Origin: Chloroflexota bacterium
GTDB lineage: Bacteria; Chloroflexota; Dehalococcoidia; Lucifugimonadales; JADFKI01
DNA length: 36,173 bases
Direction of reading: 5' to 3'
Assembly (NCBI GenBank): GCA_009840355.1
Contig: VXNZ01000038.1
Coordinates: forward strand, 1-36,173
Under the pieces are notes generated by a model. It saw only the letters and a program-made list of their open reading frames with translations, searched no databases and was not told the DNA's origin. The position numbers and the translations under genes are program-made. Positions 1 through 25,364 of this stretch are shown here, piece by piece. The first letter of the stretch is position 1. Every line of letters begins with the position of its first letter.

Positions 1-12
1 GGACACATATTT

Positions 13-52
13 CGCCCCCATCCTAACCTTCCCCCATCAAGGGGGAAGGGAC
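13..52. repeat. C-rich/G-rich hairpin repeat, copy 1
   Basis: The sequence CCTTCCCCC (27-35) pairs perfectly with GGGGGAAGG (41-49) across a 5-nt loop and is preceded by a TCCTAAC motif. Related but degenerate sequences occur near 299-330, 1315-1345, 7507-7552, 8496-8532, 23423-23462, 25418-25450 and 35280-35318. It is an intergenic repeat family. There is no T-tract, so it is not a standard terminator. Confidence 0.8.
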
Positions 53-73
53 TTTTGAAATTGTCTTGTGGAT

Positions 74-254
74 GAGACGATTTCACAAATGCAATTTATA
101 CCTGTCATTTGCGGTCTATACCTGTCATTTCGAGCGAGGCGAGAAATCTAAAGTCGGAAACAGGGTTGCGTGCAACGATTTCAGATTCCTCACTGCGTTC
201 GGAATGACAAAGACAGCGCGGAATGACAACATTAGGGATTTGTGGAATCGTCTC
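74..254 (+). repeat. MITE-like dispersed element, copy 1
   Basis: Terminal inverted repeats are GAGACGATTTCACAAAT at 74-90 and its near-complement at 238-254 (one mismatch). Inside are two subterminal arms, GTCATTTCGAGCG... and ...CGTTCGGAATGAC, which are themselves roughly inverted, so the whole element is a long imperfect palindrome. The 6-mer GTGGAT occurs immediately outside both ends (68-73 and 255-260), as expected of a target-site duplication. An inner stretch (TATACCTGTCATTT) is duplicated in this copy. No transposase is encoded, so it is non-autonomous if mobile. Confidence 0.85.
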
Positions 255-7567: not shown

Positions 7568-8032
7568 TCAACCTCGCCTTGTGCGATGCCTGTCGGCGGA
7601 ATCAATCAGGATGGTTACTGGTCCGTCGTTGTGGATTGACACTTCCATGTGCGTTTGAAATCTGCCTGTTTGCACCTTCAGTCCGGTCTGCTCGAACAGG
7701 CGCAGTGTGCGGTTGAACAGGTCGGAGGCAGGCTCCGGTGGCATGGCATGACTGAAGCTGGGGCGTCGTCCGCGCCGTGTGTCGCCGTATAGGGTGAACT
7801 GGCTTATGACGAGCAATTCCGCGGATGTGTCGAGCGCTGATAGGTCGAACTTGCCGTCGTCGTCGCTGAATATGCGAAGATTGGTGGTCTTTCCGACGAT
7901 ATAGGCGGCATCTTCCTCGTCGTCGTCTTCGTGGATGCCGATGAGAACGACTAAGCCCGCGCCAATGCTGCCGGTGATCTCGTTGTCAACGGTGACGGAC
8001 GCATGTGAGACACGCTGGATGACGGCGCGCAA
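7568..8032 (-). CDS. dtd: D-aminoacyl-tRNA deacylase Dtd
   Basis: Dtd hydrolyses D-aminoacyl-tRNA and glycyl-tRNA-Ala, clearing mischarged tRNAs. The 154-residue protein carries the two family signatures: SQFTLYGD (77-84) and NDGPVT (135-140), which includes the Gly-Pro that rejects L-amino acids. The N-terminus MRAVIQRVSHASV is canonical. The start codon is TTG at 8030-8032, 8 nt after the stop of the zinc-ribbon gene, so the two genes form an operon. Confidence 0.95.
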   Translation of the reverse strand: MRAVIQRVSHASVTVDNEITGSIGAGLVVLIGIHEDDDEEDAAYIVGKTTNLRIFSDDDGKFDLSALDTSAELLVISQFTLYGDTRRGRRPSFSHAMPPEPASDLFNRTLRLFEQTGLKVQTGRFQTHMEVSIHNDGPVTILIDSADRHRTRRG

Positions 8033-8040
8033 TGGTGGGA

Positions 8041-8337
8041 CTACTCTTCCGAGCTAGAAGATGCGGAACTCGCCTTGGATGTCGAACCTGAGGAAGAGTC
8101 TTCGCTGCCGGAGTTTTCAGACGAGCCGTTGCGACTGGTGGTGTTGGTGTAGCTGCTGCCCTTGCCGTAGTCGTTCACATAAAAGCCGCTGCCCTTGAAG
8201 ACTATGGGCACGGCTACGAACTGGCGGCTGGCTTGGCTGTCACATATAGGGCAGTTCGCCACGGGATCGTCATAGAAACTCTGGCGTTCCTCAAAACGAT
8301 GGCCGCAACTGTTGCACTTGTAGTCGTAAGCAGGCAA
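8041..8337 (-). CDS. FmdB-family zinc-ribbon protein with Ser-rich tail
   Basis: The N-terminal 45 residues form a FmdB-type zinc ribbon: P-A-Y-D-Y-K-C8-x2-C11, then C29-P-I-C32, followed by a short beta segment (VPIVFKGSGFYVNDY). The rest (60-98) is low-complexity Ser/Glu/Asn/Thr and probably disordered. The TTG at 8335-8337 is the likely start: AGGAG (complement of 8346-8350) lies 8 nt upstream and the protein then begins M-P-A-Y-D-Y like its relatives; the frame extends slightly upstream to a GTG. FmdB proteins are proposed regulators of uncertain target. The gene leads the dtd pair and has its own promoter. Confidence 0.85.
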   Translation of the reverse strand: MPAYDYKCNSCGHRFEERQSFYDDPVANCPICDSQASRQFVAVPIVFKGSGFYVNDYGKGSSYTNTTSRNGSSENSGSEDSSSGSTSKASSASSSSEE

Positions 8338-8397
8338 TACAGACACTCCTATCCAATCCGATTTTAGCAGCAGCGCACCGCAACTGACAGCATTATT

Positions 8398-8426
8398 AAT
8401 GTAGCACTACGCCGTTTTAGTGTCAA
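8398..8426 (-). promoter_or_regulatory. Promoter for the fmdB-like gene and dtd
   Basis: On the minus strand a perfect -35 TTGACA (complement of 8421-8426) is followed after exactly 17 nt by TACATT (complement of 8398-8403). It ends about 60 nt before the TTG start at 8337, which is close for a first gene. Confidence 0.6.
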
Positions 8427-8495
8427 ATTGCGAGCGGCTTGTGCTTCGTGAATTTTCCAGTTGTAGTGTCAGGATGATTCGCGTTCCATTTGTCG

Positions 8496-8532
8496 TTTCT
8501 CGCCCTCAGGGGGAAGGTTGAGAAGGGGGCAA
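8496..8532. repeat. Degenerate C/G-rich hairpin repeat
   Basis: CGCCCTCAGGGGGAAGGTTGAGAAGGGGG resembles one arm of the hairpin family at 13-52. It lies just after the purL stop codon and before the fmdB promoter. Confidence 0.5.
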
Positions 8533-8581
8533 TGGTATAGGCAATTCGCAAGTCCCAAGTGTGCTGTGCAGTAAGATTTGC

Positions 8582-10813
8582 TTACAACCTGTCTTCCAGT
8601 CCGCGTCGCCATTTTGCATCTATCTCCGACAAGGGCAATTCAATCGCGCCGGCAATCGTAAACGAATCCGGCGCGACTGCGCCCAACTCGCAGAACGGCA
8701 CGCCTTCTTCCGCGCAGACTGCCGCGAATGAATCTAGCCTGTCCGGTGGGAGCGACACGACTATCCGGGACTGCGCTTCTCCAAATAGCGTGACATCCCA
8801 GCGCGCGCCAGGCTCCGCCAGCGTCATGCCTAGCGCCGTTTCCGCGCCGCAATCCATGCCCAACCCGCCTTCGATGCAGGATTCGGCTAGCGCGACTGCC
8901 AAGCCGCCTTCAGAGCAGTCGTGTGCTGAGCCGATTACACCTGTCGTTGCTAGTCTGCGGCAGGCGCGCTGCAACGCTGCTTCGGCTTCGATTTCAAGCG
9001 CGGGCTGCCCTGCTACCACGCCATGCATGACTTCGAGGTATTCGCTGCCCACTAGCGTGGATGGGTCGGCGTGGATGTCCGATGCGCCTAGCAGTGCGAT
9101 GATGTCTCCAGCCTGCCGGAAACCCATGCCCACATTGGCGCGCGCGTCGTCTAGCAAGCCCAGGCAGCCGATGATCGGTGTCGGGTATATGCCCACGCCC
9201 TGCGTCTCGTTGTACAGGCTGACGTTGCCGCTGATGACGGGCACATCCAGCGCGCGGCACGCTTCCGCCATGCCCAGGATGCATTGCTCCAGCTGGTAGT
9301 ATGTCTCCGGCTTTTCAGGGTTGCCGAAGTTTAGGCAATCGGTGAGGGCAATCGGTGTCGCGCCGGTGCAGGATACATTGCGGCACGCCTCCGAAACGGC
9401 AATCATCCCGCCGATGTACGGGTCGAGATAGCAGAGCCGCCCGTTGCCGTCCGTTGACAGCGCGATGCCCTTGTCCGTGCCCTTCACGCGCAATACCGCA
9501 GCATCCGCTCCCGGCGCCGCGACCGTGTTCGTCTGCACTTGATGGTCGTACTGGCGATACACCCATTCCTTGCTCGCTATGTTCGGCGAGGCGAGCAGGC
9601 GCAGCAGCACATCCGCCGGCGTCTCTTCAGGCAGCGGAAGCTCGGACAGGTCGCGCGATTGCAATGTCGTCAGCCATTCCGCCTTGACGCCCTGTAATCG
9701 GTACTGCGGTGCGTCCGTGAGCGTCCTGACCGGCGGCGCGCCCTGTGCTTCGCCGTCGTCTAGGATGCGCGCCAAGCCGTCATCGGTTGAAGTGCCGATG
9801 ACGGTCGATTGCAAATCCCACTTGTCGAACACTGCTTTTACCGCGTCTTCGTATCCGGGCTTGACGACCACTAACATGCGTTCCTGCGACTCGGACAGCA
9901 TCACTTCGTAGGGCGTCATGCCGGTTTCGCGGCGCGGTACAAGCGCGACATCAATCTCTATGCCACTCTCGCCGTTCGACGCCGCTTCAACCGATGCGCT
10001 TGTCAGTCCCGCCGCGCCTAGGTCTTGCAGTCCGATGATGTGACCGGTCTTGGCGACTTCTAAGCATGCTTCGATGAGAGATTTTTCCATGAACGGGTTG
10101 CCGACCTGCACGGTCGGGCGCAGCTCGCGTTCGTCCTCGAATGTGCGGGACGCAAGCCCGGATGCGCCGTGTATGCCATCGCGACCAGTGTCCGACCCGA
10201 CGAGCATCAGCAGATTGCCCGCGCCGCCGGTCGTGGCGCTCAGCAGGTCGTCCGCCGACAGTATGCCTACGCACATCGCGTTCACCAACGGGTTGCCAGC
10301 GTAGGAATCCGAAAAATATACTTCGCCGCCGACATTGGGGATGCCGATGCAGTTTCCGTAGCCGGAAATGCCTGCGACCACGCCGCCGAACAGATAGCGG
10401 TTGCGCGGCTCGTCCACGCTGCCGAATCGAAGCGAGTTCATAAGCGCTATTGGACGCGCACCCATCGCGAATATGTCGCGCACGATGCCGCCTACGCCAG
10501 TCGCCGCGCCTTCGTATGGCTCAATCGCGGAAGGGTGATTGTGCGATTCGATCTTCATTACGACCGCAAGCCCGTCGCCGATGTCCACGACGCCCGCGTT
10601 CTCGCTGCCGGGCGTTACCAGCAGGCGCGGGCTGTCGCTCGGCAACAGGCGCAGCAGCGGCTTGGAGTGCTTGTAACCGCAGTGTTCGCTCCACAGCGAG
10701 CCGAACAGCCCTAATTCCAAGTGATTCGGCTCTCTGCCGAGCCGTTCCACGATTGCCTCATATTCCGCGTCCGTGAGCGCGAGTTCGTCCAGCCTTTCCC
10801 TTGAGACCGCCAT
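8582..10813 (-). CDS. purL: Phosphoribosylformylglycinamidine synthase subunit PurL
   Basis: The 743-residue protein is the small-type PurL, which makes FGAM from FGAR, ATP and ammonia supplied by PurQ. Conserved pieces include LWSEHCGYKHSK near the N-terminus, KIESHNHPSAIEPYEGAATGVGGIVRDI (ATP and substrate site, given in the family's usual order), the QDLGAAGLTSAS motif, and in the second half GGNGRLCYLDPYIG-like and HDCSEGGLAVALAES segments. The start ATG at 10811-10813 has AGGACGG upstream. It is the last gene of yqeY-purQ-eamA-eamA-purL, 37 nt after the second EamA gene. Small PurL needs PurS, which is not visible here. Confidence 0.96.
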   Translation of the reverse strand: MAVSRERLDELALTDAEYEAIVERLGREPNHLELGLFGSLWSEHCGYKHSKPLLRLLPSDSPRLLVTPGSENAGVVDIGDGLAVVMKIESHNHPSAIEPYEGAATGVGGIVRDIFAMGARPIALMNSLRFGSVDEPRNRYLFGGVVAGISGYGNCIGIPNVGGEVYFSDSYAGNPLVNAMCVGILSADDLLSATTGGAGNLLMLVGSDTGRDGIHGASGLASRTFEDERELRPTVQVGNPFMEKSLIEACLEVAKTGHIIGLQDLGAAGLTSASVEAASNGESGIEIDVALVPRRETGMTPYEVMLSESQERMLVVVKPGYEDAVKAVFDKWDLQSTVIGTSTDDGLARILDDGEAQGAPPVRTLTDAPQYRLQGVKAEWLTTLQSRDLSELPLPEETPADVLLRLLASPNIASKEWVYRQYDHQVQTNTVAAPGADAAVLRVKGTDKGIALSTDGNGRLCYLDPYIGGMIAVSEACRNVSCTGATPIALTDCLNFGNPEKPETYYQLEQCILGMAEACRALDVPVISGNVSLYNETQGVGIYPTPIIGCLGLLDDARANVGMGFRQAGDIIALLGASDIHADPSTLVGSEYLEVMHGVVAGQPALEIEAEAALQRACRRLATTGVIGSAHDCSEGGLAVALAESCIEGGLGMDCGAETALGMTLAEPGARWDVTLFGEAQSRIVVSLPPDRLDSFAAVCAEEGVPFCELGAVAPDSFTIAGAIELPLSEIDAKWRRGLEDRL

Positions 10814-14713: not shown

Positions 14714-16222
14714 CTATTCGCTGGGCCAGCCTTCAGGGGTTTCGCCGGCGGCGAGGGCGATATGTATGCTCTCGGCTGCTTCGGAAGTTACCCAGTCTTC
14801 CCAGATGTCGGTGTTGGCGCTCAGCCACCAGAGCGCGGTCGCGTTGGTGTCCGCGTCCGGGTTGGTGTCCTGCCAGCGGACGACCGCCTTGTAGATGTCG
14901 ATGTTGAAGTCCCATGCGCGGAGCATGTTAATGACTTCCGGCGCTCTTGCGGGCAGGTCCGGCGCGACTGCTATCAGAATAGTGGCGTCCTCGTAGGCGC
15001 AAGCCTTCGTGGTGAACCAGCACTCGTCGCTGTAGGCTGGCTCTTCCAAGCGAACTAGGTCGAGCTTGAGCGCGGGGTCATTGGTGCCCCACTGGTAGCC
15101 GAGCCACGGCTCCTGGCGCTCGTATGCGCCGTAGATGTCTGCGTTCAGCGCTGCGCCGTCGCCGGGGTTGATGACTTCCACATAGTCGCCAAGCCCATAG
15201 GCTTCGATCTGCGCTTCGTTCACGACTTCGCAAGCCCAGCCGATGACGCAGGAAACCAGCCGCGCCTTGTCGCCGGTCTCGGCTGTGGTGAACAATGCCT
15301 GATACTGCGGGTCTTTCAGGTCTTCAACGCTGTCAAGCTCAGGATACTGCTCTTGCAGGTATGCGGGGATGACAAACGCGGACTGCCAGTCCTTGCCCAG
15401 GCTCAGACCGACGGAGACGACTTCGCCAGCGGCGCGCGCTTCGTCCCATGCCTCATCCTGGTTAGGCAGCCAAATCTCCATGGCAACATGCGTGTCGCCG
15501 TTTCGCAGCCCTTGGAACAGGGGCAGTGTCGCGCCGAACTTGACATCGGTCGGGTAGCCGTAACCCTTCTCGACGAGATACTGCGCAATACGGTTCTGCA
15601 GCAGTGCGCTCGACCAGTTCAGGTCGCCGAAAATGATGGTCTCGCGCGGCGGCTCTTCCATCATCGCGCGCTCTTCGAGCGCCATAGCGACGATGCTCTG
15701 CACTTCGTCAGCGGTGAGCGCGTCAGATTGTGCTTCCATGACTGCCATGCTGACGGCGGATTGCACATCTTCGCTTGTAACGGCAGATTCCTGCGCTTCC
15801 ATAACCGCCATGGAAATCGCGGATTCGACATCGTCGGCCGTAACGGCGTCCTCACTGGCAGCCATTACCGCGGATTCCACCATAGCCTGAATCTCTTCGG
15901 GGCTTGCGCCTTCCATGGCTGCGGACTCGACGGCTTCTTCCACCATCATCGCAATGTCGTCGGCAGATACTTGCGACTCTGCCATGCCCATCATGGACTT
16001 TTCGACCATCGCCGATATTTCTTCAGCCGTAACCTGTGGTGCTGCGGGGGCAGGAGCGGGCGCGGCGCTCGCGACTGCCGATTCAACTATACTTTGCAGC
16101 CGTGCTTCGTCGATCGCAGGCGCCGGTGCGGGAGCCGGTGCGGGCTGCGAGCAGGCGATTGCCGCGAACGCGACGAGCGCCATAATCAGCGCCGCCGGCA
16201 ACAACATTCCTTTCTTTACCAA
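14714..16222 (-). CDS. opuAC: Glycine betaine/proline-type ABC transporter substrate-binding lipoprotein with repeat stalk
   Basis: The 502-residue protein has a signal peptide ending in A-I-A-C24, so it is anchored to the membrane as a lipoprotein. An Ala-Pro-rich linker follows (25-63). Six consecutive 21-residue units start at 64, 85, 106, 127, 148 and 169, each with the pattern V/L/A-T/S-x-D/E-D/E-I/V followed by a helical M/A/V-rich stretch, likely an extended stalk. From about 194 to 502 is the OpuAC/ProX fold that binds quaternary ammonium compounds, with several Trp residues for cation-pi contacts and cysteines that may form disulfides. AGGAGGA lies 9 nt before the ATG. It is the last gene of the opuAA-opuAB-opuAC set, 263 nt after the permease. 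Confidence 0.9.
   Translation of the reverse strand: MVKKGMLLPAALIMALVAFAAIACSQPAPAPAPAPAIDEARLQSIVESAVASAAPAPAPAAPQVTAEEISAMVEKSMMGMAESQVSADDIAMMVEEAVESAAMEGASPEEIQAMVESAVMAASEDAVTADDVESAISMAVMEAQESAVTSEDVQSAVSMAVMEAQSDALTADEVQSIVAMALEERAMMEEPPRETIIFGDLNWSSALLQNRIAQYLVEKGYGYPTDVKFGATLPLFQGLRNGDTHVAMEIWLPNQDEAWDEARAAGEVVSVGLSLGKDWQSAFVIPAYLQEQYPELDSVEDLKDPQYQALFTTAETGDKARLVSCVIGWACEVVNEAQIEAYGLGDYVEVINPGDGAALNADIYGAYERQEPWLGYQWGTNDPALKLDLVRLEEPAYSDECWFTTKACAYEDATILIAVAPDLPARAPEVINMLRAWDFNIDIYKAVVRWQDTNPDADTNATALWWLSANTDIWEDWVTSEAAESIHIALAAGETPEGWPSE
15656..16033 (-). repeat. Six tandem 63-bp coding repeats
   Basis: Within the binding-protein gene, codons 64-189 form six units of exactly 21 codons (63 bp) with no insertions. 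The start of each unit encodes a T/S-x-D/E-D/E pattern. The nucleotide sequences have drifted, so the repeats are not a very recent expansion. Confidence 0.85.
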
Positions 16223-16485
16223 AGTCCTATCCTCCTTGCTGATTGCTTGTCCATTTCTTGTAAATTTACGATCCGATTACGATGCGGTCTCAAGCGCTCC
16301 GTAATGCGCTTGCCGAGAATCGATCGGCTGCGCGCGGATGCGACGACCGCGTTGTTTCTACCGTTGCACTATATCAGATAAGCAAGCCTCCTGACTTTCT
16401 TCGAGACGAAATTGCAAGAATCATTGATGAGAGTCTGCCGCGAATGCGCCACTGACAGCATTCTCAGGCAGTTCACCCCCTGCGA
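16223..16485. other. Gap between transporter permease and binding-protein genes
   Basis: The stretch holds the ribosome binding site of opuAC (complement of TCCTCCTT near 16231-16238) and no supported gene. Its length suggests a separate promoter or RNA processing site for the binding protein, which transporters often need in excess. No clear promoter or terminator is seen. Confidence 0.5.
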
Positions 16486-17550
16486 TTAACCAGCAGCATG
16501 GCTCAGTGCGTCTTGGCGGCCACGGGCTACGCCCTGCGTGAGCCGATCGAAGATGATGGCTAGGAAGACGATAGCTGCGCCGGAGATTAGCCCTTCGCCG
16601 ACCTGGTTCTTTTGCAGGGCGCGCAGAACGTTGTCGCCCAAGCCGCCGGCGGCGACCATGCTAGCGATTGTTACCATTGCGAGCGCCATCATCGTGGTCT
16701 GGTTGATGCCCGCCATTATCGTGGGCATTGCCATTGGCACTTGCACCTTCGTCAGCACCTGCCAAGGTGATGCGCCGAACGAACGCGCGGCTTCTACGAC
16801 TTCTTCATCTACTTGTCGAATGCCCAGATTGGTCAGGCGTATGACGGGCGGCACGGCGTAGATGAGCGTGGCGAATATGCCTGCCGGTGAGCCGAGTCCG
16901 AAGAACAGAATGCCCGGCAACAGGTACACGAAGCTGGGCATCGTCTGCATGGCGTCCAGAATCGGGCGCATTATGTTGTCCGCCAGCTGACTGCGTGCGC
17001 CAATTACGCCGAGCGGCAGTCCGGCGGCGACCGCGATTGCGACCGACACCAGCATGAGCGCCACTGTGTCTATCGTGTTCTCCCACAGTCCCATAAAGCC
17101 GAAGAACAGCATCGCGAAAGTGGTGAAGAGCGCCATAGGCCAACGCCCGACAGCGTACGACAGCAACGCGAGCGCGACGACTATCGCGGGCCAGGGAATC
17201 CATTTGAGAGTTTCTTCGATGTACCGCAAGGCGTATTGGATAGCCGCCTTAAGCCCTTCGAACAGCCAGTCGCCGTTCTTTGTCAGCCAGTCCGCCCAGC
17301 CGTCGATGCTGTCGCCGGTTACCTGCCGCAGCGATTTCTCGATGACGACCGTGTTTGCGCCGGCAGCGACTTCCGAGCTCGATACGGTGGTGGGGTATTC
17401 CATGTTGGGACCCCAGACAAGCAGGCATGCAAGGAGCACGATGATCACCGCGCCGATGCCGAGCAGCCAGAAGTAGATGCGCGGCACCTGGCTTGCGGTT
17501 ACTCGTTGTGCGTCTTCGGAGGTCTGTTGAAGGTTTTCGACTTGCGCCAT
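16486..17550 (-). CDS. opuAB: Glycine betaine/proline-type ABC transporter permease
   Basis: The 354-residue protein has one N-terminal membrane helix (about 27-46), an outward loop, and a further set of helices from about 118. The EAA loop that contacts the ATPase is EAARSFGASPWQVLTKVQVP. A region MPSFVYLLPGILFFGLGSPAG is typical of ProW/OpuAB. The gene begins 2 nt after the ATPase stop and is surely cotranscribed. It probably forms the homodimeric channel with the ATPase below. Confidence 0.93.
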   Translation of the reverse strand: MAQVENLQQTSEDAQRVTASQVPRIYFWLLGIGAVIIVLLACLLVWGPNMEYPTTVSSSEVAAGANTVVIEKSLRQVTGDSIDGWADWLTKNGDWLFEGLKAAIQYALRYIEETLKWIPWPAIVVALALLSYAVGRWPMALFTTFAMLFFGFMGLWENTIDTVALMLVSVAIAVAAGLPLGVIGARSQLADNIMRPILDAMQTMPSFVYLLPGILFFGLGSPAGIFATLIYAVPPVIRLTNLGIRQVDEEVVEAARSFGASPWQVLTKVQVPMAMPTIMAGINQTTMMALAMVTIASMVAAGGLGDNVLRALQKNQVGEGLISGAAIVFLAIIFDRLTQGVARGRQDALSHAAG

Positions 17551-17552
17551 GC

Positions 17553-18779
17553 TTAATCCTCCATCGAGTCGTCCGACATCCCTGTAAGCAGAGCGCCGCG
17601 GTGCACTTGGCCGAGCAGCCGACCGTCTTCGTTGACGACTGCGATGGGATGCTCCGTGCTCGCCGCCATCGGGATAAGTTCTTCGATGTACGCGTCCGGA
17701 CTTGAGGTCATCACTTCGGACAGTCGAACATCGCGCAGGGATTCGACTTTCTGCCGCGCGAGATTTCCGGCTTCGTCTTCGGTGATGATGCCCTTCAGGA
17801 TGCTGTTGTGCCCAAGCACGAGCAACACATCGGTATCGTTGCTGCGCATTGCTTGGAGCGCGGCGCGTGGGCCCTGCCAGTCGTTCACGACCACATCGGG
17901 TTCTTGCATAATCGCTTTCGCCTGAATGACCTTCGCGCGCGAAACATCCTGGATGAATGAAGTTACATAGTCGTCCGCGGGCAGGGTTACTATCTCTTCG
18001 GGCGTGCCTTCCTGCACAATCTCGCCGTCGCGCATAATGGCGATGCGGTCGCCGATTTTCAGCGCCTCGTTGAGGTCGTGTGTGATGAAGACGATGGTTT
18101 TCTGGATGGATGTCTGCAGCGAGATAAGTTCGTCTTGCATCTCTCGGCGGATGAGAGGGTCGAGTCCGCTGAACGGCTCGTCCATCAGCAGCACTTCGGA
18201 GTCGGCTGCGAGCGCGCGCGCCAGTCCGACACGCTGCTGCATACCGCCGCTCATCTCGCTGGGCAAGTAGTCTTCCCAGCCCTTCAGACCGACGGTCTCA
18301 ATGGCTTCGAGCGCCGCTTCGTAGCGCGCTTCTTTGTCAACGCCGCGAATCTCCAGCCCGTATGCGACATTGTCGAGCACGCGGCGATGTGGCAGCAGCC
18401 CGTAGTGCTGGAAGACCATCGCAATCTTCTCGCGGCGGAACTGGATGAGCTGTTCGGAGTCGAACTTCAGCACATCTTCGCCATCGAACAGCACCGCGCC
18501 TTGCGTGGATTCGATGAGGCGGATGAGGCAGCGTACCAGCGTTGATTTGCCGCTGCCGGACAGTCCCATAATGACGAAAATCTGCCCTTTGCCGACTCGG
18601 AACGACACATCGCGCAGTGCGACGACAAGCCCTAGTTCTTCCTGAATTTCGGCGCGCGATGACGAGGCATACTTGTCCTGGAGGGCGATTTTCGGGTTCT
18701 TGCCGAATACCTTCCAGAGGTTCTTGACCTCGATCTGCGTTGGCTGGCGCTGCGTATAATGAGGGTCTTCCGTTGCCAT
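17553..18779 (-). CDS. opuAA: Glycine betaine/proline-type ABC transporter ATPase with CBS domains
   Basis: The 408-residue protein has Walker A GLSGSGKST (72-80), the signature MSGGM (176-180) and Walker B VLLMDEPF (196-203), with the extra helix before Walker A seen in ProV/OpuAA. The C-terminus (about 286-400) forms a pair of CBS domains, which in OpuA sense ionic strength. It is the first gene of the operon; the 5' region is unusually long (about 620 nt to the next gene). Import of betaine or a similar osmoprotectant is likely. Confidence 0.94.
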   Translation of the reverse strand: MATEDPHYTQRQPTQIEVKNLWKVFGKNPKIALQDKYASSSRAEIQEELGLVVALRDVSFRVGKGQIFVIMGLSGSGKSTLVRCLIRLIESTQGAVLFDGEDVLKFDSEQLIQFRREKIAMVFQHYGLLPHRRVLDNVAYGLEIRGVDKEARYEAALEAIETVGLKGWEDYLPSEMSGGMQQRVGLARALAADSEVLLMDEPFSGLDPLIRREMQDELISLQTSIQKTIVFITHDLNEALKIGDRIAIMRDGEIVQEGTPEEIVTLPADDYVTSFIQDVSRAKVIQAKAIMQEPDVVVNDWQGPRAALQAMRSNDTDVLLVLGHNSILKGIITEDEAGNLARQKVESLRDVRLSEVMTSSPDAYIEELIPMAASTEHPIAVVNEDGRLLGQVHRGALLTGMSDDSMED

Positions 18780-19360: not shown

Positions 19361-19384
19361 ACATTCAGCAGTACATTCAGCAGT
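19361..19384. repeat. Perfect 12-bp tandem duplication
   Basis: ACATTCAGCAGT is repeated exactly twice, ending just before AAGGAGG (19386-19392), the ribosome binding site of the next gene. It lies in the 5' leader. Confidence 0.8.
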
Positions 19385-19400
19385 GAAGGAGGCTACCAAA

Positions 19401-21416
19401 GTGGCAGTCGTACAACTAGAAATCAGCAGGCGCGCTCCTTATGCGGGCGGCGAGAGATTTGGCGATGTGGGCGCGTATGAACAGATTGACGGCACGGTTC
19501 ACTATGCTGTCGATCCGTTGCATTCCGCCAACGAGGGCGTCGTTGACTTGCAGCTCGCGCCGCGCGATTCTAAGGGCAAGGTATGGTTCTCGTCGGACTT
19601 CACACTGCTGAAGCCCGAGAATATGGAGAACGGCAACGGCAGCGTGCTCTACGATGTGGTCAACCGCGGACGAAAGACAGTGATGGGGCGTTTCAACGAC
19701 ACGGGTAAGCCCACGATGCCGTCCGACCCGCTGGATTCGGGCAACGGCTTCCTTATGCGGCACGGCTATTCCGTGCTGTTCGGCGGCTGGCAGGCGGATG
19801 TGCCGCGTGGTGTTGGGCTTATCGGCTTGCAGGCACCACAAGCGCAGGACGCGGACGGCAACCCAATCCGCGGTAAGATTATGTGCCAGTTCCAAGCGAC
19901 GCACTTCACGCAGTTCTTCCTGCTTGCGGACAGGCAGCACACGCCGCATCCCGCCGCCGACGAGAACGAAGCGGATGCAACGCTGACTGTGCGCGACCAT
20001 CCCAACAGCCCATCCGAACCGATAGCGCGGGACAAGTGGCGCTTCCTGCGCTTTGAGGACGCGTCAATAGAGCCGGATCCTTGCCATATCTACATGGAAG
20101 AGGGCTTTGAGCCGGGCCGCATATACCAGCTCGTGTACACCACGACGGGCAGCACGATTGTCGGGCTTGGCTTTGCGGCGATGCGCGACATCGTTTCATT
20201 CCTGAAACATGGCACGGCAGGGCAGGGCAACCCGTGCGCGGGCGGCATTCAACGAGCACACGCGTTTGGCGCATCGCAGAGCGGCCGCTTCTTGCGCGAG
20301 TATATTCACACCGGCTTGAACACCGACGAAAACGGCAACATGGCGCTGGACGGCATAATCTCGCATGTCGCGGGCGGCATGCGCGGCGAATTCAACCTTC
20401 GATTCGGTCAGCCGTCTAAGGATGTGTGCTACATCATCCCGAAGCTGTTCCCCTTCGCGGACACGGAGCAGTCCGACCCCGTAACGGGTGAGAGCGGCTC
20501 GCTGCTGGAGAACTTGCAGGCGCGCGGACACATGCCGCGCATTATGTTCACCAACACATCGGCGGAGTATTGGCGCGGCGACGCGGCGCTGATACACACG
20601 AACTTTGCCGACATGAGCGACGCGCCGGAGGAAAGCGACTTTGTGCGGCGGTATCACTTCGCGGGTTCGCCGCATGGCTCAGGGCATTTCCCGCCGCTCG
20701 GCACGCGCGCGGACGGCATGCGCGGGCAGTTGCCGTTCAACATCATCGAGTACAATCCGCTGCTGCGCGCATCGTTGGAAAACCTAGACATGTGGGTACG
20801 CGGTGAGCGTCCGGCGCCGGCGAGCAGGCATCCGCGTATCTCGGACGGTACGGCGGTCGAATCGCACACGCTAGCGTCCAAGTTCCTGCGGATACCGGGC
20901 GTCGCGTTCCCTGAGAAGGTTACGCGCGCGATGCGCCTCGACTACGGACCTGACGCCAAGAACGGGCGCACGACTATGCTGCCGCCGGTGCAGGGCGAAG
21001 AGTTCCCCGCGCTAGTGGCGAATGTGGACGACGACTGCAACGAGGTTGGCGGCATTCGCCTGCCCGACCTGATGGTGCCGGTCGCGACTTACACGGGCTG
21101 GAATCTGCGGCATCCGGACATCGGAGCGCCCGGCTTGGTCATCGGCATCACGGGCGGACTCGCGGGCTGGGTGCTGCCGTTCCCGGCAACGCCTACGCAA
21201 GGCGCAGCGATCCGCGACCCGCGTCCTGCCATCAGCGAGCGTTATTCGTCGAAGGACGACTATCTGGCGCAGACGGAACGCGCCGCACAGGAGCTTGCCG
21301 GCGAAGGCTACATGCTGACTGAAGACATCGAAGATTCGCTTCGACGCGCGGCAGTTCGTTACGACTATTTCACCGCAAACGGCAGCGCGAACGGCGCGAC
21401 AAACGGCAGCGCATAG
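19401..21416 (+). CDS. Large alpha/beta-hydrolase-domain protein of unknown substrate
   Basis: The 671-residue protein resembles the Abhydrolase_10 type of proteins. The nucleophile elbow is GASQSGR with Ser292 (G-x-S-x-S), followed by F-L-R-E-Y; a likely catalytic His lies in SPHGSGHFPP. No signal peptide is evident. The start is GTG at 19401, 8 nt after AAGGAGG; a GTG at 19383 is in the ribosome binding site itself and unlikely. The substrate cannot be told; an ester or amide is plausible. The last residues are a Gly/Asn/Ala/Ser-rich tail (NGSANGATNGS). The Vms1-like gene begins 3 nt after the stop, so the two are cotranscribed. Confidence 0.8.
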   Translation: MAVVQLEISRRAPYAGGERFGDVGAYEQIDGTVHYAVDPLHSANEGVVDLQLAPRDSKGKVWFSSDFTLLKPENMENGNGSVLYDVVNRGRKTVMGRFNDTGKPTMPSDPLDSGNGFLMRHGYSVLFGGWQADVPRGVGLIGLQAPQAQDADGNPIRGKIMCQFQATHFTQFFLLADRQHTPHPAADENEADATLTVRDHPNSPSEPIARDKWRFLRFEDASIEPDPCHIYMEEGFEPGRIYQLVYTTTGSTIVGLGFAAMRDIVSFLKHGTAGQGNPCAGGIQRAHAFGASQSGRFLREYIHTGLNTDENGNMALDGIISHVAGGMRGEFNLRFGQPSKDVCYIIPKLFPFADTEQSDPVTGESGSLLENLQARGHMPRIMFTNTSAEYWRGDAALIHTNFADMSDAPEESDFVRRYHFAGSPHGSGHFPPLGTRADGMRGQLPFNIIEYNPLLRASLENLDMWVRGERPAPASRHPRISDGTAVESHTLASKFLRIPGVAFPEKVTRAMRLDYGPDAKNGRTTMLPPVQGEEFPALVANVDDDCNEVGGIRLPDLMVPVATYTGWNLRHPDIGAPGLVIGITGGLAGWVLPFPATPTQGAAIRDPRPAISERYSSKDDYLAQTERAAQELAGEGYMLTEDIEDSLRRAAVRYDYFTANGSANGATNGSA

Positions 21417-21419
21417 AGT

Positions 21420-22217
21420 ATGCTAGAACTGGTAGAGCGCCATTCCACCAGCAGGGCGCGGCTGCGTCGCCTGCTCGACGAAATTGCCGCTGAAGGCTGG
21501 TGCGAGAGGACGCTCTACCTTACGCCCGCGTCATATGAGGCGCGTATGCAAGACCGCCGCATCGTCCGTCCGAACATGCCGGACGACGATGCGATGGGCG
21601 TGGTCGCGCAATCCGTCGGCGAGTCTGATACGGGCCTTGCGCTCTTCATTGGAGATGGCAAGGCGGTCGCGGTATGCCCACCGTTTCCCTTTGCGGACGA
21701 CGTGTCGCGCTCCGGATTCGTCGCGTCGCCACTGCTTCGTATGCTCGACCGCGAATATGTCGTAGGTGTGGTGTTGTTGCGTCTAGGGCGCTACGCAGTC
21801 GGCGTTGTGCGTGGCAATAAACTCGTCGCATCCAAGACAGCGGGACGCTACATGAAAAATCGCCATCGCGCCGGCGGACAATCTCAGCGCCGCTTCGAGC
21901 GCAGCCGCGAACGCCTAATCCGTGAGCTTTACGACAAGACTTGCGAGATTGCCAATGCAGTCTTCGAGCCATACATCGACACCATCGACCACATTTTGCT
22001 AGGCGGCGAAAACTCTACGCTAACGGGCTTCGTCGACCGCTGCCGCCTACTCCGCGACGTGGACGACAGGGTGCTATCGCGCCGCCTAGCCGTGGACACG
22101 CCCAACCGCAAGGCGCTCGACAACATCGCCTTCGAAGTGTGGAAGAGCAGGGTGTACTCGTTTCAGAGCGTCCCCGAATCTGTCGAAACCGCTTCTCCAG
22201 CTACGGAACGCCAATAG
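21420..22217 (+). CDS. Vms1-like (VLRF1-type) peptidyl-tRNA hydrolase / ribosome-rescue factor
   Basis: The 265-residue protein looks like the bacterial branch of the Vms1/eRF1-like release factors. A beta-rich part (LLRLGRYAVGVVRGNKLVAS, 119-138) leads into a basic loop with GGQSQRR (152-158), which matches the Gln-bearing catalytic loop of VLRF1 proteins and recalls the GGQ of release factors. A long basic helix (RRFERSRERLIREL) follows. In eukaryotes Vms1 frees stalled peptides from tRNA on 60S subunits; a role in clearing stalled 50S-peptidyl-tRNA is the natural inference. The last 30 residues are variable. The gene is directly downstream of the hydrolase gene; no RqcH is in the window. 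Confidence 0.75.
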   Translation: MLELVERHSTSRARLRRLLDEIAAEGWCERTLYLTPASYEARMQDRRIVRPNMPDDDAMGVVAQSVGESDTGLALFIGDGKAVAVCPPFPFADDVSRSGFVASPLLRMLDREYVVGVVLLRLGRYAVGVVRGNKLVASKTAGRYMKNRHRAGGQSQRRFERSRERLIRELYDKTCEIANAVFEPYIDTIDHILLGGENSTLTGFVDRCRLLRDVDDRVLSRRLAVDTPNRKALDNIAFEVWKSRVYSFQSVPESVETASPATERQ

Positions 22218-22601: not shown

Positions 22602-23372
22602 CTACTGCGCCGTATATCCGCCGTCCACCACCAACGGCGTGCCTGTTACGAATGCGGACTCGTCAGATGCGAGGTACAGGGCTGCGTTGGCGATGTCGTC
22701 CGGCTGCCCCAGCCGCCCTATCGGATGCCTCTGCTTCAGGAACTCATAAGACTCCGGAACATCAGTCAGAATGCGGGTCATGTTCGTCTCCACATAGCCG
22801 GGGCATATGCAGTTAACGCGGATGCCTTTAGGCGCGAGATCAAGCGCCAGATTGCGTGTGAATTGGAGCACCGCGCCCTTGGACGGGTTGTATGGGCTGA
22901 AGCCGTTGGTCATTCCCATAGGATACCCCACCAGCGACATGATGGAGCCGATGTTGATGATGGAGCCGCCGCCCGCCGCTTCCATCTCAGGCGCGGCATG
23001 CCAAGAAACCAAGTAAGTGCCTTTAATGTTCACATCCATCACCTTGTCCCAAACATCTTCGTGCGTCGCGCCTTCTCCGAGGTCGATTCTGCCGCTCACT
23101 CCCGCGCTATTCAGCAGCGTATCGAGTTTGCCGTATGCGTCTATGGCGGCTTGCACCATCGCTTTCGCGTCTGAGTCGCTTACGACATCGCCGCCTATTG
23201 CCGTTGCTTCGCCGCCCGCTTCCCTAACGGCAGCGGCAGTCTCGACCGCGGATGCCTCGCTGATGTCAGACGCCACGATGCTCGCGCCTTCTGCCGCGAA
23301 CCTGAGCGCGGTTGCCCTGCCGATGCCCGCTCCCGCGCCCGTTATCAGCGCGACCTTGCTTTCCAAACGCAT
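22602..23372 (-). CDS. SDR-family oxidoreductase with intact active site
   Basis: The 256-residue protein is a classical short-chain dehydrogenase: TGAGAGIG (11-18), an NSAG motif (88-91), structural Asn in MDVN (115), catalytic Ser143 (IGSIMS), Tyr161 and Lys165 (YNPSK). The acidic Asp at the end of the second strand (SD, 36) suggests NAD(H) rather than NADP(H). Substrate is unknown; it resembles FabG- or sugar-alcohol-type members. ATG at 23370-23372. Unlike the first SDR in the window, it has all catalytic residues. Confidence 0.92.
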   Translation of the reverse strand: MRLESKVALITGAGAGIGRATALRFAAEGASIVASDISEASAVETAAAVREAGGEATAIGGDVVSDSDAKAMVQAAIDAYGKLDTLLNSAGVSGRIDLGEGATHEDVWDKVMDVNIKGTYLVSWHAAPEMEAAGGGSIINIGSIMSLVGYPMGMTNGFSPYNPSKGAVLQFTRNLALDLAPKGIRVNCICPGYVETNMTRILTDVPESYEFLKQRHPIGRLGQPDDIANAALYLASDESAFVTGTPLVVDGGYTAQ

Positions 23373-23422
23373 GAAATACCCTCGTCTAATCGTTCAATAC
23401 TCTTGCAGCCGTTACTCTTGCA

Positions 23423-23462
23423 TTCCATTCCCTCTTGACGCGGGAAGGTTAGGATGGGAAGT
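23423..23462. repeat. Degenerate C/G-rich hairpin repeat
   Basis: ATTCCCTCTTGACGCGGGAAGG followed by TTAGGATGGGAAG resembles the family at 13-52, here between two minus-strand genes. Confidence 0.5.
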
Positions 23463-23494
23463 AAAACGAACTATGAATGAATTGTGTGATTTCT

Positions 23495-24175
23495 TCAACC
23501 AATCTCAAAATGCTCGCCTTGCGTGTGTGTGCTCCACTCGCCGTCGCGGTACACTGTTACCTCTCCTTCGCCTAGCACGCGCCAGCCGTCGCCGTCGCTG
23601 ACGCAGCCGGTCGCGCCGTCTATGCCCAATGCGGTGAGTCTGCCGGTTGTTTCATGGCGCAGATCGCGTGCCGTTTCGTTCTTGCTGGCACGCTCGTGGT
23701 GCGGCAGCACAACCACACCCGGCACGATTGACAGCGCATCAGTCCACTGGCGAAAGCGCATACGCTCGCCCATTACCATCGCGCCGGCGCTGGAACCGGC
23801 GACTATCAGATTGCGCTCCAAGCCTTCTTGAACCTTTCGCAGCAGGAGCGACCCGCGCAGAACTTCCAGCAGATACGCAGGATTGCCGCCTGCGAAATAC
23901 ACGATGTCCGCCTTGTCCACCTGCGAGACCAGGCTTTCGTCGTCTGCCTCTTCGGAGCTTAAGACCATTAGCGGCTGCGCGTCGGCGCCCAGCGTCTCAA
24001 ATTGCTGGACGCCGTGGGTCGCTTGCAGAACCGGGCGTCCTTCCTGAGCTGTCGCTGTTGGCACGATAAGCACTCGCGGCTGTACGTGGCCCGTAGCGTT
24101 GACTAGCTCGTTGTCCATCTGACGGCAGGATACTTGAAATTCGTCTCCGCCGACTAAGGCAATCTTGCCTGCCAT
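23495..24175 (-). CDS. Peptidase S51 / cyanophycinase-like protein
   Basis: The 226-residue protein has the class I glutaminase-like fold of S51 peptidases. Motifs: IVPTATA near 37, a FAGGNPAYLLEVL substrate-site segment (94-106), the nucleophile elbow AGSSAGAM with Ser129, and LPHHE, a likely catalytic His. Such enzymes cleave Asp-containing dipeptides or cyanophycin-type polymers, often with isopeptide bonds. The ATG abuts the TAG of the phosphotriesterase-type gene upstream, with no gap, so the two are cotranscribed. Its exact substrate is open. Confidence 0.82.
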   Translation of the reverse strand: MAGKIALVGGDEFQVSCRQMDNELVNATGHVQPRVLIVPTATAQEGRPVLQATHGVQQFETLGADAQPLMVLSSEEADDESLVSQVDKADIVYFAGGNPAYLLEVLRGSLLLRKVQEGLERNLIVAGSSAGAMVMGERMRFRQWTDALSIVPGVVVLPHHERASKNETARDLRHETTGRLTALGIDGATGCVSDGDGWRVLGEGEVTVYRDGEWSTHTQGEHFEIG

Positions 24176-25249
24176 CTAACTCGCCTCCTGCGGCGCGGCG
24201 AATGTGAGTGCCGTCGCCGGATTGTTCACCAAAATATCGTCTATCAGGGCTTGGCTGAATCCGCGCATGCCCATTCTCGGCACGATATGCCCAAGAATAT
24301 AAGCGTAGCCGTGCCCGCCGTAGCGTTCCAGTCGGTTCTTGGTGCAGATGTCGTGCGACACCAGAATCTTATGCCCATAGCCCTGACTCGCCAGCCACGC
24401 GATGTCGTCCATTCGCTTGGCATCGTTCGGCATATCGATGGCGGAGTTCGCGCCGTAGTAGGACTGCTCAGTGCCGAACAGGTCCCATTCCAAGTAGCAG
24501 CCGGACTCTGCAATTTGCAGCAGCGTTTCGTGCAAGAACACGGTACGGTCGATATGCCCAACTATCGTGCGCTCCAAGTCCGCTCCCGCCTCGCGCAGCA
24601 CTTCGATGATTTCCAGTGGCGCGGTTTCGTCTCTGCCCGGGTGTATCAGAATTGGCGCGCCGGTGATGCGCTGCGCCCGCGCTGATGCGCGCAAAGCCTT
24701 GCGTTCGTTCGGCATGAGCGGCCAAGAGCAGCCGACTTCACCGATGACGCCGGACTTGTGCGGCGTGCCGTCCACGCCCTCGGTTACATCCAGCACGATT
24801 CGCGACATTGCATCGTCTTCGGTCATATCGTCCATGTTTGCGGGATGCGAATCATCAACATAGTAGGACGCACCCATAACTATGCGCACGCCGGTCGCCC
24901 GCGATATGCGCGCCAGCCCTTCGGCATCGCGCTTGATGCCGATGCTCGTCGCGTCCACCAGCGACCCGCCGCCATACTGCTGGTAGATGTTCACCTCGTC
25001 AATCGCGGTTGCCACATCAGTCAGCTGTACATTGTCGGCGTTGCGTTGCGCCCAGTGCTGTATGCGCCCGACATTCTGCAGCGACACGGGTTCGTAGTAG
25101 AAGCCCTTTGCACCTGCTTGTTCCGGCGGCGCAAATAGCGGCGACATGTCGATGAGCAAGTGTTCGTGCGTCAGCGTGATGCCGAGCTGCGCCGGGTTTA
25201 TCGCGCCTAGTACGGTCTGCACATTGCCCTCTAGATTGAAGTTTGCCAT
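24176..25249 (-). CDS. Phosphotriesterase-family metal-dependent hydrolase
   Basis: The 357-residue TIM-barrel protein belongs to the PTE/PHP family. Metal ligands are visible: H28-x-H30 in TLTHEHLL, the bridging Glu in VIGEVGCSW (Glu in place of the carboxylated Lys, as in PHP proteins), His in ILIHPGRDE, His in VGHIDRT and Asp in VSHD. The start ATG at 25247-25249 has GGGAG upstream; a longer frame extends to 25360 but lacks homology. Family members hydrolyse lactones, phosphotriesters or unknown metabolites. With the adjoining peptidase gene it forms a two-gene unit. Confidence 0.87.
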   Translation of the reverse strand: MANFNLEGNVQTVLGAINPAQLGITLTHEHLLIDMSPLFAPPEQAGAKGFYYEPVSLQNVGRIQHWAQRNADNVQLTDVATAIDEVNIYQQYGGGSLVDATSIGIKRDAEGLARISRATGVRIVMGASYYVDDSHPANMDDMTEDDAMSRIVLDVTEGVDGTPHKSGVIGEVGCSWPLMPNERKALRASARAQRITGAPILIHPGRDETAPLEIIEVLREAGADLERTIVGHIDRTVFLHETLLQIAESGCYLEWDLFGTEQSYYGANSAIDMPNDAKRMDDIAWLASQGYGHKILVSHDICTKNRLERYGGHGYAYILGHIVPRMGMRGFSQALIDDILVNNPATALTFAAPQEAS

Positions 25250-25364
25250 CGCGTTTCTCCCAGAATCGCCTGTGGAACATGTCAAGTAGGAGACTGAGCG
25301 AACCTCGCCATACGGCTTCGCAAATGTCTGCCTATTGCGTGACTCGCCTTGTATGCACATTCTT

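Follow-up and report, generated by a model that had tools for sequence, protein, structure and literature searches.

In eukaryotes, Vms1 is the factor that releases stuck protein chains from stalled ribosomes. Bacterial ribosome-associated quality control (RQC) is described for Bacillus subtilis, in which MutS2 binds and splits collided ribosomes, the peptidyl-tRNA stays on the 50S subunit and RqcH adds alanines to the chain (PMC10897456); Pth is reported to be able to release the chain in bacterial RQC (PMC11317155). A published survey reports MutS2 in almost every genome that has RqcH, and treats MutS2 as feeding RqcH (PMC11633108). Among the prokaryotic relatives of Vms1 is the acVLRF1 family (Pfam PF18859), for which Burroughs and Aravind predicted a probable peptidyl hydrolase role in 2019 and described a GGxSQ motif (PMC6514570). 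Here we describe an acVLRF1 gene at 21420..22217 on the forward strand of a 36,173-nucleotide stretch of DNA (‘the window’: contig VXNZ01000038.1, positions 1 to 36,173, of the Chloroflexota bacterium assembly GCA_009840355.1). In the relatives of this genome, acVLRF1 co-occurs with mutS2 and is often encoded beside it, and the reading that we favor, with some reservation, is that its product acts on the 50S-peptidyl-tRNA complex after MutS2 has split the ribosome, freeing the nascent chain without RqcH.

The gene begins with ATG and encodes 265 amino acids. The product matches the Pfam acVLRF1 profile at 95.2 bits (4.6e-27, cut-off 27.1), and all sister families score lower: baeRF_family10 at 66.1 bits (29 bits behind acVLRF1), eRF1_2 at 39 bits and bVLRF1 at 17.2 bits, the last below its cut-off. 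With the narrower NCBIfam acVLRF1 model, NF041024, the protein reaches 109.8 bits, short of the cut-off of 125. The nearest sequence in the PDB is an archaeal aRF1 (4af1, 1.4e-13). Judged from its sequence, the product belongs to acVLRF1 within the eRF1/Vms1 superfamily, of which it is a small member with two domains. The original prediction had assigned it to the Vms1-like release factors; the profile search placed it inside the eRF1/Vms1 families, with acVLRF1 as the best match, and the fold described below agrees. As in the published description of acVLRF1 (PMC6514570), there is an RNase H-fold domain, a GGxSQ loop and a Chloroflexota host; the N-terminal extension and the apparent lack of a Pelota domain probably agree with it as well. 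The host genome, which is 97% complete, comprises 3.28 Mb in 57 contigs, of which C38 is the window, and has a single copy of the gene. Homologues were found in 22 of 40 relatives, and the named homologues belong to metagenome-assembled genomes of Chloroflexi, SAR202 and Dehalococcoidia.

The structure of the protein was modeled with AlphaFold2 from 55 aligned sequences (predicted local distance difference test score, pLDDT, 93.1; predicted TM-score, pTM, 0.86). In the model, an alpha/beta domain forms the N-terminal extension (residues 1-100, an approximate boundary taken from DSSP; 21420..21719, forward strand) and is followed by the RNase H-fold catalytic domain, similar to domain 2 of eRF1 (residues 115-245, the extent of the Pfam match; 21762..22154, forward strand). 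The model stops after this domain, and Pfam likewise finds no third (Pelota) domain. A Foldseek search with the model lists aRF1 first (3.6e-11), then eRF1, followed by Balon (7.3e-7), Vms1 (6r84, 1.3e-5) and Pelota. With VIA-align, the RNase H-fold domain alone matches aRF1 8hku over 128 residues (Z 14.8, 2.7 Å). Residues 1-100 can be aligned both to Vms1 and to the N domain of eRF1/aRF1; thus, the stop-codon domain, which has been called lost in acVLRF1, may instead be reduced.

The relative placement of the two domains was compared as well. Both domains superpose jointly on Vms1 bound to the 60S subunit (6r84, 6r87 and 6r86) and on 5whg, at 4.2-4.6 Å for 166-178 residues spanning 6..248 (6r84_R: Z 10.4, 4.6 Å over 178 residues; 5whg: Z 8.8, 4.2 Å over 166). 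Two-domain alignments with eRF1 and aRF1 cover more residues (219-230, Z about 13-14), yet at 13-18 Å, so the domain arrangement differs from that of eRF1/aRF1. In this one aligner, then, the domains of the model appear to be placed as in Vms1; the likeness to Vms1 that had been proposed would thereby extend, in a high-confidence model, from the fold to the domain arrangement. What the window protein does not share with Vms1/ANKZF1 (eVLRF1) are the ankyrin and zinc-finger accessory domains, which are unmatched in Pfam at E up to 1 (the VCP-interacting motif, VIM, was not searched separately). aRF1 and eRF1 give the best sequence and fold matches and share the GGQS stretch and the arginine-rich helix after it. 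The window protein differs from them in its domain arrangement and in having no third domain, and it probably has no part in ordinary termination. Balon and the baeRF proteins belong to the same superfamily (Balon Z 11.3-11.8), but the window protein, at 265 residues, has two domains rather than three and scores lower against them than against acVLRF1.

The catalytic loop and the start of the arginine-rich helix occupy residues 148-163 (21861..21908, forward strand), reading R148-H-R-A-G152-G153-Q154-S155-Q156-R157-R158-F-E-R161-S-R163, with GGQSQ at residues 152-156 (21873-21887). Both the GGxSQ loop and the arginines in the next helix that the family requires are present (GGQSQRRFERSR), and the GGQSQRR stretch in a basic loop and following helix, from which the gene was initially picked out, lies in the open reading frame at 21420-22217 (+) as claimed. 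By alignment, the window's GGQSQ is an aRF1-register glutamine (Q154) combined with the usual glutamine of the family (Q156), and peptidyl-tRNA hydrolase activity is predicted for the protein.

An intact mutS2 gene is present in the same genome on another contig (G000:C25), unlinked to acVLRF1. Its product of 836 amino acids scores 740.7 bits including a neighboring piece (cut-off 400) and contains the Walker A motif GPNTGGKT, the Walker B motif LILLDE and the Smr motif HGRG, with LDVRG as the DLR motif. RqcH, in contrast to B. subtilis, was not found: the RqcH (NFACT) profile, which detects B. subtilis and nine other control genomes, gave no match over its cut-off in the 40 relatives or in a sample of 384 genomes of the class (at least 80% complete). 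Weak PF05833 matches were rejected as RqcH; they cover only profile positions ~163-268, fall below the cut-off and look like the Fpg/MutM-like part. RqcH, the known partner of MutS2 and, as Rqc2, of Vms1, was accordingly rejected as a partner of acVLRF1 in this class. A check for RqcH had been proposed together with the gene's assignment, and this is its outcome. In a second sample of 201 Chloroflexota genomes (at least 90% complete), RqcH is present in 93 overall vs none of the 10 with acVLRF1 above 75 bits. Trans-translation was considered too, as a variable background: transfer-messenger RNA passes its cut-off in 33 of the 40 relatives and is present in the window genome. As a separate observation, most members of five families (f41, f48, f100, f34 and f36) have MutS2 with neither strong acVLRF1 nor RqcH found.

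Co-occurrence is the first line of evidence that connects acVLRF1 with MutS2. Of the 40 relatives, 25 have a MutS2 match that passes the cut-off, and the counts for both genes, acVLRF1 only, MutS2 only and neither are 22/0/3/15 (p=2e-8), or 16/0/3/14 with one genome per family. Since just 3 of the 22 relatives have the two genes linked in position, linkage does not account for this association. In the class sample, strong acVLRF1 (PF18859 E up to 1e-16) is present in 146 genomes; MutS2 is over the cut-off in 273, or in 277 by the proxy used in the cross-tabulations (best E < 1e-100). The corresponding counts are 133/13/144/94, and the association holds within families (Mantel-Haenszel odds ratio 17.9, p=5e-13) and after stratifying by family and genome size (odds ratio 12.5, p=1.6e-7). 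Genome size itself matters too: genomes with neither gene are often small, so streamlining contributes. Another 26 class genomes with PF18859 E > 1e-16 were counted as not strong, of which at least G440 and G485 may carry true weak or partial copies; omitting all 26 gives 133/13/120/92 and leaves the outcome unchanged. In the phylum sample, acVLRF1 exceeds 75 bits in 10 of 201 genomes, and the 8 of these that have MutS2 are those of the window's class. Phylum-wide PF18859 matches of ~20-55 bits were rejected as acVLRF1, as all eight that were tested score higher as baeRF_family10.

The second line is gene order. Neighbors were clustered in stretches of at most 16 kb at 31 other loci with acVLRF1, making 32 with the window, and mutS2 is the immediate same-strand neighbor in nine of the 32, preceding acVLRF1 in seven and following it in two. 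The neighboring protein, of ~790-820 amino acids (one is cut by a contig end), is identified as MutS2 by its MutS_V, Smr and MutS2-type SH3 domains, the SH3 match being partly below cut-off. In a set with shorter flanks, mutS2 lies within ~1.5 kb in 26 of 58 loci, always on the same strand (26/26), 24 times upstream and twice downstream. Between the mutS2 stop and the aligned acVLRF1 start there are 30-213 nucleotides in 23 of the 24 upstream cases and 653 in the other (L169). Class adjacency was scored for the 61 genomes in which both gene places were among the matches listed; within these, 45 genomes from 16 families have an adjacent same-strand pair. In a tree of 59 acVLRF1 rows (L032, L162 and L163, one fragment and two repeats, were left out), a single clade of 25 holds most of the rows that adjoin mutS2, L013, L019 and L021 lie elsewhere, and adjacency changes at least six times; many forks are unsupported, and the tree serves as a sketch only. 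One bin with 8% contamination (G540) carries the adjacent mutS2-acVLRF1 pair twice, on contigs C98 and C91, owing either to duplication of the unit or to a mixture of strains. Elsewhere, a mutS2-adjoining acVLRF1 is split into two open reading frames of 80 and 167 amino acids by an apparent frameshift or sequencing error (L119, G167:C15, ~7861-8639).

With RqcH not found, MutS2 would need a factor that enters the 50S A site and frees the chain, and acVLRF1 fits by fold, loop and operon position. In the mechanism that we consider probable, MutS2 would split a ribosome that has stalled or collided, and peptidyl-tRNA would stay on the 50S subunit; the basic GGQSQ loop of acVLRF1 would enter the vacant A site and reach the end of the peptidyl-tRNA; and the nascent chain would be freed, so that neither RqcH nor alanine tailing would be needed to recycle the 50S subunit and the tRNA. 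To what was computed here (the family, fold and loop, MutS2 in the genome, the absence of RqcH, and the co-occurrence and linkage with mutS2 in relatives), this adds an order of events, a 50S substrate and binding, and a release chemistry, all of which are proposals. Compared with RQC in B. subtilis (MutS2, RqcH, RqcP/YlmH and Pth), the splitting factor is shared, and the Vms1-like factor would take the place at which RqcH and Pth would act.

Several findings weigh against this reading. mutS2 and acVLRF1 are non-adjacent in the window genome itself and in 19 of the 22 acVLRF1-bearing relatives. MutS2 does not need acVLRF1, since 144 of the 384 class genomes carry it without a strong copy, including nearly the whole of families f41, f48 and f100. 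Adjacent genes can be lost jointly in single deletions, which inflates the co-occurrence in the class, less so in the 40 relatives; and the class-wide absence of RqcH amounts to one lineage-level event rather than an independent correlation. In the other direction, 13 of the 146 class genomes with strong acVLRF1 are without clear MutS2 (G323 holds a probable fragment, and others may be assembly gaps), as are two genomes outside the class in the phylum sample (G077 and G221). Our genome searches covered Chloroflexota; mutS2 is reported in 0 of 3213 Actinobacteria in the published survey (PMC11633108), and Pfam's description names Actinobacteria as acVLRF1 carriers, so a MutS2 partnership cannot be the family's only context. 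The 13 class genomes and the two from outside the class would suit a reading in which acVLRF1 works alone, as a rescue factor or backup release factor for stalled 70S ribosomes or dropped-off peptidyl-tRNA, and is tied to mutS2 through a shared stress regulon only. The 2019 survey does describe prokaryotic VLRF1 as ‘standalone’ and independent of other RQC parts (PMC6514570), but the tight operon linkage with mutS2 in two gene orders and the co-occurrence within families make this explanation unlikely.

Variation in the loop bears on the chemistry and is a further point against the favored reading. Among 62 acVLRF1 loci (two genomes enter twice via repeat loci), G152, G153, S155 and R158 are invariant, and R161 and R163 are kept in 61. 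Residue 154 is S in 41, Q in 10, T in 5, W in 4 and R in 2; residue 156 is Q in 46, A in 7, S in 7 and E in 2. Sixteen of the 62 loops are glutamine-free, several of them in copies that adjoin mutS2, which argues against glutamine-dependent hydrolysis as a universal chemistry and makes tRNA cleavage or a non-catalytic action possible for part of the family. For the window protein we favor hydrolysis via Q156 and/or Q154. That it instead cleaves the tRNA 3' end in the manner of Vms1 is doubtful, even though the invariant GGxS and R158 around a glutamine that some loops lack, the Vms1-like domain arrangement and the description of Vms1/ANKZF1 as a tRNA endonuclease (PMC11317155) would suit such an activity: this copy retains both glutamines, and Burroughs and Aravind favor hydrolysis and dispute RNase activity for the fold (PMC6514570). 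More doubtful still is a non-catalytic A-site binder, comparable to Dom34 or Balon, that protects or empties ribosomes. The glutamine-free loops and the fold likeness to Balon and Pelota would allow it, but no third domain was found, GGxS never varies, Q156 is kept in most loops and the window has GGQSQ. Some genomes also have a second, divergent acVLRF1; the copy in L118 (G188:C48) has a glutamine-free GGRSE loop.

In the literature that was searched, which took in neither supplements nor papers behind subscription, no paper links VLRF1 with MutS2. Whether Dehalococcoidia-like Chloroflexota have a minimal, RqcH-free form of RQC, in which MutS2 splits collided ribosomes and an often operon-encoded Vms1-type factor releases the chain directly, is in our judgment evenly balanced. 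If they do, a prokaryotic VLRF1 would for the first time be placed in a functional setting, and the Vms1 step of eukaryotic RQC would have a parallel in bacteria; alanine tailing would be dispensable in MutS2-based rescue, and the eukaryotic coupling of splitting and Vms1 release would have a bacterial counterpart. Two questions become testable, namely the fate of obstructed 50S subunits in bacteria with MutS2 and without RqcH, and the job of prokaryotic Vms1-like factors. The natural glutamine-free copies adjoining mutS2 bear on the dispute over whether Vms1-type domains hydrolyze the ester or cut the tRNA. Bacteroidota, which have their own bVLRF1 family, might be candidates for the same route: in genomes of the Fibrobacterota-Chlorobiota-Bacteroidota (FCB) group, MutS2 is reported in 1781 of 1956 and RqcH in 404 of 1956 (PMC11633108).

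Directly upstream of acVLRF1, with a gap of 3 nucleotides, is an Abhydrolase_10 gene (19383..21416, forward strand; PF20091, 3.7e-39). An AAGGAGG immediately precedes an in-frame GTG at 19401, making that GTG the likelier start of the hydrolase. The spacing and its conservation suggest that the two genes are cotranscribed; a promoter and terminator scan gave a site count about equal to that of shuffled sequence. The original prediction had singled out this pairing as one not explained by known rescue pathways, which overlooks the informative partner, mutS2, sited elsewhere in the genome. The pairing itself is real, and is kept in 8 of the 22 acVLRF1-bearing relatives (all 7 of the window's family and G012). 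If the pair were the functional unit, the hydrolase might act on a modified aminoacyl bond or process the chain once it has been released. However, it was not seen beside acVLRF1 in the remaining 24 of the 32 loci, and its presence across the 40 relatives, where it is equally variable (20/40), is associated with neither acVLRF1 nor MutS2 (for acVLRF1: both 12, acVLRF1 alone 10, hydrolase alone 8, neither 10; p=0.75). The pairing is thus probably local and incidental, and on linkage and co-occurrence we set the hydrolase aside as a functional partner, a role that we regard as very unlikely; it is probably an unrelated operon neighbor, outside the mechanism.

Other surroundings were also noted. 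Within a few bases 3' of the window-genome mutS2 are DUF192 and formyltransferase (Formyl_trans_N/C) genes (L181:4034-8286, G000:C25); the latter reads as a methionyl-tRNA formyltransferase, and the three genes are possibly a translation-linked cluster. A mobile-element setting for acVLRF1 was rejected, as plasmid and phage searches matched nothing. In the window, positions 14714-18779 hold a divergent glycine-betaine-type ATP-binding cassette (ABC) transporter operon (OpuAC, BPD_transp_1, and ABC_tran with CBS), in whose binding protein the OpuAC domain is preceded by a long stretch rich in Ala, Met and Glu. On the opposite strand at 22602-25360 are genes for a short-chain dehydrogenase/reductase (SDR), a peptidase S51 and a phosphotriesterase-family protein, which are partly conserved in close relatives.
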